Shown here: in pieces, positions 4,003 through 9,402 of the stretch
Layout: every line of letters begins with the position of its first letter
How positions within the stretch are numbered: position 1 is the stretch's first letter
Origin: Anaerolineae bacterium
GTDB lineage: Bacteria; Chloroflexota; Anaerolineae; Anaerolineales; Anaerolineaceae
DNA length: 64,000 bases
Reading direction: 5' to 3'
Assembly: GCA_011176685.1 (NCBI GenBank)
Contig: DUED01000033.1
Coordinates: 1 to 64,000, forward strand
The notes under the pieces: generated by a model
The model's input: only the letters and a program-made list of their open reading frames with translations
Database searches by the model: none
Told to the model about the DNA's origin: nothing
Position numbers and translations under genes: made by a program

Positions 4003-4188
4003 TCTAGTTAACGAAAGTTGGTGTGTACTAATCTGATTCGTTAGACAAAACTAGCGGGATCATCACTGAGAAATTTGCAGTAAATGAATCCATTAACCCT
4101 CACGCTGTCCATGATTCTTATAAAACTTGAAAATATTTGTTTTGTAAAAAGTACAAAAATTCTGGGCTTGTCAGATATATCGAGTTGC

Positions 4189-4262
4189 CTTTCATTGTGC
4201 AACACAAGTGCAACACCATTGATACTAGGTGGACACAATGGACATGCTGGCTTTGAATTTAT
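4189..4262 (+). repeat. leader repeat copy 1 of 4 (TGGACACAATGGACA type)
   Basis: The sequence runs TTGCCTTTC, then two GTGCAA words, then GGTGGACACAATGGACA at 4228-4244. The same order of words recurs near 7460-7525 and 8708-8797, and in decayed form near 6440-6540. In the other copies a tRNA-like anticodon arm follows. Here only a weak gctggctttgaattt stretch is left, which I would not call a tRNA on its own. It probably marks the end of an old integrated element. Confidence 0.5.
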
Positions 4263-6314: not shown

Positions 6315-6529
6315 TTTCAAAAATATACCAAGATTGATTCCAGTTCTAATTAGTAAATAATATTTCCTAAAATTCAAGAAAAATATTGATGTGATTAAAT
6401 CGTTTCTGGTCTTATTTTTTCCGAATTAAATAAGATTTCTTAATCGCTTTTCCTAGTGTAAATCGGGTGAAAATGTAGTGGTATCTATGAAAACCATGTA
6501 CATTTTTGGTGATCTTTTATGTACCCTGT

Positions 6530-6591
6530 GGACATATGTATATACTGACTTCGAATCAGTAGGTTGCGCGTTCGAATCTCTCCGGGTGCGC
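6530..6591 (+). repeat. decayed 3' half of a tRNA-Arg(UCG)-like gene
   Basis: ACTGA (6544-6548), loop CTTCGAA, TCAGT (6556-6560) form a perfect five-pair anticodon arm with anticodon TCG. A GGTT variable region, a TTCGAAT T-loop (6571-6577) and a CGGGTGCG acceptor-like end follow. The T-stem no longer pairs well (GCGCG against CTCTC), and no matching D-arm or 5' acceptor strand exists upstream. It is therefore not a working tRNA. A TGTGGACA word precedes it, as in the other copies of this scar. It is best read as a tRNA-derived attachment-site remnant. Confidence 0.55.
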
Positions 6592-7375: not shown

Positions 7376-7458
7376 TCGTTAGGTTTTCATTGTATCAAAT
7401 ATAAAACTTACAAACTCTGTAGTCATTTTATATATTTTCATATTAGTTATACCTACGA

Positions 7459-7566
7459 GTCGCCTTTCCCATTTTTGGTGCAAAGCGGGTGCAACGCCCA
7501 TGATACCAGGTGGACACAATGGACAAGTGAAGCAACTGACTCTTAATAATTAGGTGCAGGGATTCA
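7459..7566 (+). repeat. leader repeat plus decayed tRNA-Lys(CTT) anticodon arm
   Basis: TCGCCTTTCC, then GGTGCAAAGCGGGTGCAAC, then GGTGGACACAATGGACA (7508-7524) repeat the words seen at 4189 and 8708. Directly after comes AGCAACTGACTCTTAAT (7531-7547), which is identical to the D-stem end, anticodon stem and loop of a tRNA-Lys with anticodon CTT. The 3' strand of the stem has decayed (TAATT), and a GCAGGGATTCAA T-arm-like stretch follows. It is not a functional tRNA. Confidence 0.5.
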
Positions 7567-7654: not shown

Positions 7655-8614
7655 TCAACTAAACAATACTGCATAAAGTTTTTCCAAACCAACAATCGCA
7701 GCAGCATTGGCACCGACAATAGTTAGCTCATAAATCATTTCATCCGAAAAATATTCTTCTCGCATTGCTTCAACATCTTCATCCGATATTTTGTAGGCGT
7801 TCAATGCTAACTTCTTCATATAGGTGGATAGTACTGGAGACAGATTTAGCACATCTGCTTGTTTTTCAGCCCATTGAGATTGTACAAAAATATCCACATT
7901 CCGGCGCAATTCTGGATCTGTTGAACCGGTATGTGTAAACAGGTGCTCCCGCCCAATATCTACTTCAGGTGGAATTGTAAGGCCGTCTTTGCTGAGAATC
8001 CAGGCTGTTGGATCACCCCTGCCTTTCATTAACTTACCAGATAGATTCAAAATCTTTGCTAGTTTTTCAACGTTTCCCCCTTGGGGGATTGGGAAGTTTA
8101 TTGCATCAGCAATCCGGTTGATGAAATTATAGTGGTATCCAACATTCCCAGCACCGCTAATACTCTCTACGTCGAGCCCAGAATCATATAAGTCTTCTAT
8201 CAAGTCCTTCCCAATATCATTAGGATGAAGGGTCATTTGTTCAAGCATCTTCAATGCTGCCTTTGTACGCTTTGGAACATCCGCATTCTTCCAATCCTGC
8301 AAGACCGCATCCAGTTTATCCTGCGGGTAGTTAAGTGCCGCAACTGCGGCATGCGCTTCCAGTCAAAAATTGCATGCGTTCAAGCCCGAAACAAACGCCG
8401 CGAACAGCTCGGCATGTCCTTTATCCCATCCGTTTACGCCGCTCATGCCGCGCATGATGTAATTCATAAAATCTTTTCTAAAAAGATCTGGACGATAAGA
8501 TATTGTTAATGATGGACCAGGGTAAGCTCCGACCCACATTTTTATCAAACGCAGTCCCAGATTCATATACCACGGGCTTTTGCTGTCTTGAAATAAATCA
8601 ATCCGCATTGCCAT
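7655..8614 (-). CDS. candidate selenoprotein, AhpD/carboxymuconolactone-decarboxylase-like (CxxU)
   Basis: One reading frame of 319 codons is interrupted by a single TGA at 8365-8363. Read as selenocysteine (residue 84) it gives C81-N-F-U84-L-E-A-H88, the AhpD redox motif CxxCxxxH with the second cysteine replaced by Sec. It is preceded by GHAELFAAFVSGLNA, the conserved acidic helix of the AhpD/CMD fold. The sequence after the TGA (AHAAVAALNYP) continues the same helix without any gap. AhpD-like proteins reduce peroxides through this cysteine pair, and Sec-containing members are known. Downstream are about 230 residues of an uncharacterised extension. A hairpin right behind the TGA supports recoding. 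The alternative is a simple nonsense mutation. No Sec machinery lies in this window. Confidence 0.72.
8330..8365 (-). promoter_or_regulatory. candidate bacterial SECIS hairpin behind in-frame UGA
   Basis: On the minus strand, after TGA (8365-8363) come 17 nt and then a TGCCGC / GCGGCA stem of six pairs (8351-8346 with 8341-8336) closing an AGUU loop. Known bacterial SECIS elements are a stem-loop placed within about 16-37 nt of the UGA with a G among the first two loop bases. Both conditions are met here. It lies inside the coding frame, as bacterial SECIS elements do. Confidence 0.6.
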
Positions 8615-8707
8615 AACATTGTTCCTTTCTTATTCCAATGTTACCTTTTTTACGATCAATTCATAGGAATTATTCGATTCTATTGTCAACTATCTATTAT
8701 TTTACAA

Positions 8708-8830
8708 TTGATATTGAGTCGCCTTTCCTGTTTGATATTCTTGGTGCAATTTGGTGCAGTTTTAATGAGACACCGTGGACACAATGGACACAATGGACAG
8801 CTTGACCTACTGACTCTTAATTAGTAGGTT
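8708..8830 (+). repeat. leader repeat plus tRNA-Lys(CTT)-like anticodon arm
   Basis: TCGCCTTTCC, TTGGTGCAA, GGTGCA, then GTGGACACAATGGACACAATGGACA (a duplicated CACAATGGA unit, 8775-8799). The arm CTACTGA - CTCTTAA - TTAGTAG (8807-8827) pairs over seven base pairs (one G-U) with anticodon CTT. No acceptor or D-arm exists around it. This is the best-preserved arm of the four scars. Confidence 0.5.
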
Positions 8831-8857
8831 TCCCCTACGGGGACTTCCTACGGTTAT

Positions 8858-9399
8858 CTCTGCGAGACTTCCTTCGGTCGCAGGGAGGCCGCACCCATGC
8901 GGGGGTGCTTGCTTGCAGCATGCTTCACGACCACAAATTTCCGCCCTGAACCTTGCATTCGTTACTTAGGAACGAATCCTTTTTATTAAAAAAGTGTCGG
9001 CTTTTGTCGGCTTTCAGAGCTCTCTGCAAGAGCAGAGAGTGGAGACGTGTGCAGAGCGTAGCGTGGTATGCCTCATCAACTGCGGCATCAAGTCGCTGTA
9101 AGATGAGGCGCGGGGCAGCCCTTTGCAAGAGCAAAGAGCGGCAATCTCATGCTTTTGCAGACCCTCAATTAAGTCAGATAAACATTCAAGTTTGAGATTG
9201 CTGCACCTCGCCCATTTCGCGAGGTTCGCAATACTTTGCAGTATGCTCCGCGATGACATGTAACGTTGTGGTAGATTGCTTCGTGCTTACAGTATGCTAT
9301 GCGATGACATATTGTGGCTGTTCGTCATTCCCTAAAGGGATGCTTCGCGATGCCCAAGGGTATGTTGCGCGATCGCCTCTGCGAGACTCCCTTTGGTCG
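8858..9399. repeat. non-coding repeat patch with flanking direct repeats and hairpins
   Basis: The patch is bounded by a 23-bp word beginning CTCTGCGAGACT (8858-8880 and 9377-9399, 21 of 23 identical). Inside are two hairpins of one type: TCTCTGC-aaga-GCAGAGA (9021-9038) and CTTTGC-aaga-GCAAAG (9121-9136). A long-range GCCTCATC/GATGAGGC pair (9070-9077 with 9102-9109) and several GTATGCTnCGCGATGACA-type words (about 9240-9370) are also present. This last type resembles the dispersed GAGATTGCTTCG...CGCAATGACA repeats of bacterial intergenic DNA. I see no gene in it; open frames on both strands are short and lack family signals. Confidence 0.6.
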
Positions 9400-9402
9400 G
9401 AA

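Follow-up and report, generated by a model that had tools for sequence, protein, structure and literature searches.

A likely selenoprotein with two AhpD-like domains, one of them degenerate, in an Anaerolineae bacterium

The present study asks how a single in-frame TGA is read in an AhpD-like gene of an Anaerolineae bacterium, and what kind of protein results if translation continues past it. The window, i.e. the whole stretch of 64,000 nucleotides that was analyzed, lies on contig C27 of a 66-contig, 2.08-Mb assembly that is 88% complete. An ATG at 8614 opens a frame of 319 codons on the minus strand, a strand that the earlier note leaves unstated, in which the sole internal TGA is codon 84 (8365-8363). 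The context of this codon is LNACNF-U-LEAHAAV, giving the motif C81-N-F-U84-L-E-A-H88, and the TGA falls where the AhpD motif has its second redox cysteine; the frame broken only by TGA, as the earlier note described it, was recovered on translation. The plus strand of 7655-8614 gave no coherent frame, and a plus-strand reading of the interval was dropped since it offered nothing comparable to the minus-strand frame. Patterns detected are very probably those of a real selenoprotein, in which UGA 84 would be decoded as selenocysteine by SelA, SelB, SelC and SelD under the direction of a hairpin just 3′ of it, the product being a two-domain AhpD-like oxidoreductase with its C-terminal domain as pseudo-dimer partner. 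The features are as follows.

7655..8614, minus strand: probable selenoprotein gene of 319 aa, with Sec at codon 84 and a terminator, TGA, at 7655-7657 (translation; a full-length orthologue in genome G591, also fused, has a single TGA)
8623..8628, minus strand: Shine-Dalgarno-like AAAGGA, separated from the ATG by 8 nt (read from the sequence)
8045..8614, minus strand: predicted catalytic domain, AhpD-like and peroxidase-related, covering about residues 1-190 (TIGR01926, profile matches, superposition of the AlphaFold model)
8408..8410, minus strand: Glu69, by spacing the counterpart of Glu118 in the proton relay of M. tuberculosis AhpD (invariant in alignment A1; 12 residues before Cys81)
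8372..8374, minus strand: Cys81, first residue of CxxU and presumed resolving thiol, counterpart of AhpD Cys130 (invariant in A1)
8363..8365, minus strand: UGA codon 84, putative selenocysteine, counterpart of AhpD Cys133 (TGA or a Cys codon in all aligned homologues)
8351..8353, minus strand: His88, counterpart of His137 in the AhpD proton relay (invariant in A1)
8336..8351, minus strand: candidate bacterial SECIS hairpin UGCCGC-AGUU-GCGGCA, loop at 8342-8345 (fold; loop and stem conserved in Sec homologues)
7658..7981, minus strand: degenerate AhpD-like C-terminal domain, residues 212-319, in which the catalytic helix is missing along with the two redox residues (homology to a separate upstream ORF of relatives; model)

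The N-terminal domain is recognizable across the TGA. TIGR01926 matched residues 48-175 with an E-value of 1e-20, and because the score of 74.3 bits is under the 81.8 cut-off the protein is filed as a divergent variant, not as a formal member of that family; the split Sec homologues L018 and L020 scored 90.9 and 91.8 bits. The canonical AhpD model TIGR00777 gave only 13.8 bits against a cut-off of 191.95. The frame is more than chance because its homology to AhpD-like proteins runs across the TGA. E69, C81, U84 and H88 reproduce the active-site pattern Glu...Cys-x-x-Cys/Sec...His with the spacing found in AhpD, where the proton relay of the M. tuberculosis enzyme consists of Glu118, Cys130, Cys133 and His137 (PMC3141380), and these four positions were invariant in the 12-protein alignment A1. 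A profile search against solved structures matched 6K40, 2OYO, 3C1L, 2PFX and 2PRR, and the AlphaFold model superposed on single AhpD-like proteins over residues 1-187 with Z 16-17; the full-length model had a pLDDT of 75 and a pTM of 0.72, with mid confidence in the C-terminal domain and low confidence in the linker. Structures 2PRR, 6K40, 2OYO and 3C1L share the fold and active-site spacing of this domain but are one-domain proteins with CxxC rather than CxxU.

If the analogy to AhpD holds, an active site of Glu69, Cys81, Sec84 and His88 would work by attack of the Sec84 selenolate on an organic hydroperoxide, resolution of the selenenic acid by Cys81 as an Se-S bond, and re-reduction of that bond by a thioredoxin-like or other thiol donor. 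Hydroperoxide reduction by the selenolate is, on this analogy, the likely function. An alternative explanation, tentative and clearly the less probable, is a selenoprotein with another main job, either as a thiol-disulfide adaptor, as AhpD is for AhpC, or in reducing a different electrophile, e.g. an organohalide in the manner of the AhpD-fold debrominase Bmp8. M. tuberculosis AhpD does act as an adaptor (PMC3141380) and Bmp8 structures are matched both by superposition of the model (Z 13.8) and in the profile search (E 3e-4), but the closest folds are peroxidase-related proteins and, in a non-exhaustive look, no AhpC-like or halogenation gene was noted beside the gene.

Comparison with relatives is consistent with selenocysteine at the UGA position. 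There were matches in 112 of 400 genomes of the phylum, with exactly one TGA in most of the best matches, and an alignment-based scan of named genomes gave 80 loci from Gemmatimonadota, Myxococcota, Chloroflexota, Actinomycetota, Acidobacteriota, Planctomycetota and others; the same contigs scanned with the window protein as lone query yielded no relative. The set used for codon analysis held 73 distinct sequences with UGA and 18 with a Cys codon at the aligned position, which is the alternation that the earlier note named as support, and the unrelated residues that the note named as evidence against selenocysteine were absent, the site being Sec or Cys only in the aligned homologues and the residue at -3 nearly always Cys. 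On the N-domain tree, at least 5-6 changes of Sec/Cys state are required.

Several individual loci deserve mention. An Actinomycetota assembly carries a tandem pair of CxxU genes behind a single partner ORF (L104:3361-4426). A second AhpD-like CxxU frame, CFYU[ML]ESH, occurs near the pair at L070:4445-4592 and L117:3072-3396, so selenoprotein genes may cluster; L117 is labelled Bifidobacterium breve, and the assembly looks mislabelled. A Cys-type pair stands upstream of a gyrA/parC-like gene in L138 (genome G780, same class).

The nearest orthologue, L137 in genome G591, is a fused Sec protein that has 41% identity over residues 3-318 and likewise carries one TGA, in the corresponding position. 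Identity to it was 55.6% before the Sec, 38.8% over 85-200 and 34.5% over 201-319, and because it runs through all three segments all parts of the protein are conserved. The 235 residues past the Sec, which the earlier note took for one long extension free of decay, are indeed conserved, but they comprise what remains of the AhpD-like domain, up to about residue 190, and then a fused partner domain (about 212-319).

The hairpin offers a second line of evidence. It lies just after the UGA with a G in its loop, the general bacterial pattern; the loop starts 17 nt after the UGA, and the 33 nt from the UGA fold at -10.6 kcal/mol. At that distance the loop is GGUC (64) or AGUU (9) in 73 of 73 Sec homologues and all five stem pairs are present in 72 of the 73, as compared with 5 of 18 Cys sequences having both loop and stem. 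A codon control was needed because the amino acids encoded by this stretch are also conserved. From the synonymous codon usage of the same genes the conserved loop would be expected in 6.8 of 73 sequences rather than the 73 seen, and although 64 codon combinations could specify the encoded Ala-Val-Ala only GCG-GTC-GCG and GCA-GTT-GCG are used. First and last loop bases covary (G-C to A-U), and the differences between UGCCGC-AGUU-GCGGCA in the window and CACCGC-GGUC-GCGGUG in the G591 orthologue are compensatory, a comparison which shows the read-through protein to be maintained. Folding energy was less informative: the 61 nt from the UGA, folded in isolation, were not unusual against shuffles (z -0.76), and per-sequence hairpin energy was only slightly better than in synonymous shuffles (mean z -0.33). 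The case for a SECIS rests on the conserved loop and its position, energy-based tests alone being weak evidence. Rfam SECIS_1 had zero matches in the genome and was equally silent in 14 of 14 control genomes, which makes that search uninformative, and an Rfam search of the window gave no match. Among the Cys forms, the five with an intact hairpin and GGUC loop are Mycobacterium homologues (L063, L073, L080, L085, L125), and their hairpins may be left over from a Sec codon that the site once had.

The machinery that such a codon would need, which the earlier note proposed to look for, is all in the genome: tRNA-Sec (74.7 bits, with a UCA anticodon, TCA by ARAGORN), selB (360 bits), selA (540 bits) and selD (399 bits), each above its cut-off. 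Because selA, selB, selD and tRNA-Sec sit on contigs other than that of the window, composition was used to test the binning: in tetranucleotide profile the four Sec-machinery contigs correlated with the window at r 0.87-0.94, compared with at most 0.69 for five outside contigs, and GC was 41-44% in all of the contigs of this check. Formate dehydrogenase, sought in the genome as an independent selenoprotein, gave sub-cut-off matches only, without TGA. The SelD of this genome (G000, contig C54:9905-10831, locus L055) is part of a 759-aa frame that starts with NifS-like cysteine desulfurase sequence and, by eye, is a NifS-SelD fusion with Cys, not Sec, in the SelD active site. In PMC2398784 a NifS-SelD protein was described for a single Geobacter only, in the Sec form.

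Given these patterns, evidence that UGA codon 84 is decoded as selenocysteine in the cell is strong, if drawn from comparison of genes and genomes. At UGA codons decoded in known systems, SelB competes with release factor 2. For that reason the codon could mainly terminate, leaving an 83-residue regulatory or truncated product with minor, selenium-dependent read-through, but this is very unlikely, since the N-terminal 83 residues would stop short of the Sec, of His88 and of the remaining fold and since the part downstream of the UGA is conserved. A pseudogene or sequencing error, with a Cys codon (TGC/TGT) turned to TGA in a dead gene, would fit the long tree branch and unusual composition of the sequence, but is extremely improbable when 73 homologues and the fused orthologue all have TGA in this position and catalytic and structural residues are intact; the SECIS, intact in the window and conserved, argues strongly against it. 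Reassignment of TGA in this organism, e.g. to Trp or Gly, has nothing beyond the open frame in its favor and is practically negligible: TGA ends 21 of the 60 window frames open for at least 150 codons, so that the code is not simply reassigned, it ends this gene too, and the full Sec machinery is present.

Returning to the selenoprotein as preferred above, its second domain is best understood from relatives in which it is encoded separately. Residues 212-319 are homologous to a short ORF that stands upstream of the Sec/Cys gene in about 92 loci from many phyla, the median distance between domain envelopes being 17 nt, and that is fused downstream in the window. This gene order, together with the fusion, shows a pairing of the C-terminal domain or separate partner with the catalytic domain. 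According to the models, the C-terminal domain probably packs on the N-terminal domain, where it would act as a built-in pseudo-dimer partner replacing the separately encoded one. In alignment A2 the separate partner ORFs fell onto the N-terminal and not the C-terminal domain, and the latter was therefore modelled again alone, with a pLDDT of 93.9. Against AhpD-like folds this model scored Z 10-11, with 104-106 residues aligned across about 144 of the target, so about 39 residues are missing; by helix order in the full-length and C-domain models, these would be the CxxC-bearing helix of ordinary AhpD and the one next to it.

Few of the genomes examined have such a fusion in the Sec form. A search of the class found two fused proteins with a TGA, L137 as described above and L139 in genome G625, making three genomes only (window, G591 and G625), among those examined, with a fused catalytic and degenerate AhpD protein containing Sec. 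The window protein groups with L137 at 98 SH-aLRT support, and the branch of L139 is too long to place. Cys proteins fused in the order of the window occur in two genomes of the phylum (L029, L034), and because these lie elsewhere in the tree the fusion may have arisen more than once. Apparent fusions in the reverse, C-N order in L031 and L121 were rejected, as the TGA stop between two adjacent genes had been read through.

It is possible to ask whether a catalytic domain followed by a dead one relates to the sestrins. In Sestrin2 the N-terminal domain is an alkylhydroperoxidase and the C-terminal domain lacks the helix-turn-helix motif (PMC4674687). Superposed over both domains, the model matched human Sestrin2 (5DJ4) at Z 17.4 over 247 residues with rmsd 4.6 and 10% identity, compared with at most 5.4 for unrelated rows, and both proteins have a catalytic AhpD-like domain first and a degenerate one second in one chain, in the window protein as predicted by models. 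Any fused AhpD dimer would be expected to show such likeness, since the resemblance of one to sestrins was shown in a 2024 review that sought bacterial analogues (PMC11429811); the proteins described there have the pseudo-domain first and none has the helix of a C-terminal domain deleted. What is closer to sestrins here, as far as models tell, is domain order and the missing helix. There are also clear differences: sestrins have a single Cys in place of the Cys/Sec dyad, the window protein is bacterial, and in the sestrin C-terminal domain an acidic hinge, DDYDY, replaces the helix-turn-helix, whereas the loop QSQWAEKQADVLNL of the window protein has no acidic run, though the helix is missing in its model. 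The sestrin family model PF04636 (PA26) left the window protein unmatched and found one Cys-type fused homologue only, at E 0.15; a profile search of solved structures found no sestrin, and the C-terminal domain alone aligned to the N-terminal, not the C-terminal, domain of Sestrin2. That the fused proteins and the widespread split pairs are living bacterial counterparts, with a Sec site, of the fusion that gave sestrins is doubtful, but the catalytic-then-dead order gives structure and phylogeny a way to test for a bacterial sestrin-like ancestor.

Among known selenoproteins the closest relatives are already catalogued, and the gene is a divergent fused variant of the CxxU AhpD-like group. 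A 2026 inventory of prokaryotic selenoproteins lists AhpD-like TIGR01926 CxxU proteins together with CMD-like, NF041238 and NF041047 types (PMC13188914), and marine surveys list AhpD-like 1 and 2 selenoproteins, the former being COG2128 (PMC2398784). Sec in AhpD-like enzymes, which the earlier note called precedented, is in these lists, and the note's suggestion of a new subfamily is partly right, in that CxxU forms were known and the fused Sec form was seen in three genomes only. TIGR01926-type selenoproteins share the CxxU site with Sec second, the AhpD-like fold and the existence of Cys homologues, but theirs is a single-domain model of 178 positions, whereas the window protein is below its cut-off and carries the fused degenerate domain. 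AhpD_rel_CFYUT (NF041238) also has two AhpD-like regions, one with CxxU, but in an order that appears reversed: its positions 57-123 were weakly matched by the split partner and 219-337 by the Sec domain of the window, and the window protein scored 25.1 bits against a cut-off of 175. Split homologues matched models of the Avi_7169/Avi_7170 type (TIGR04030, TIGR04029), which likewise describe AhpD-domain and CMD-domain proteins, but scored far under the cut-offs. A limited literature search found neither the upstream partner ORF nor the window-type fusion described.

These findings have several implications. First is that a fused two-domain form is added to the AhpD-like selenoproteins. Secondly, many phyla have a conserved partner ORF next to the Sec gene, and this is a direct lead on how uncharacterized enzymes of this kind are assembled. 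Such genes are easily missed because reading TGA as a stop splits them in two, as in the ORF list of the window, and the set can readily be found by its invariant GGUC or AGUU SECIS, which lies at a constant distance.

In the surroundings of the gene, a scan for promoters and terminators gave sites no more numerous than in shuffles. From 8838 to 9400 there is no convincing gene, and short repeats such as CTCTCTGCAAGAGCAGAGAG and CCTTTGCAAGAGCAAAGAGC are able to form stem-loops. A dispersed intergenic repeat (TGGACACAATGGACA...) lies at 4185-4244, 6520-6564, 7457-7555 and 8716-8829, flanking the gene on both sides, and the repeat stretch at 8700-8840 has 28 matches in the genome.
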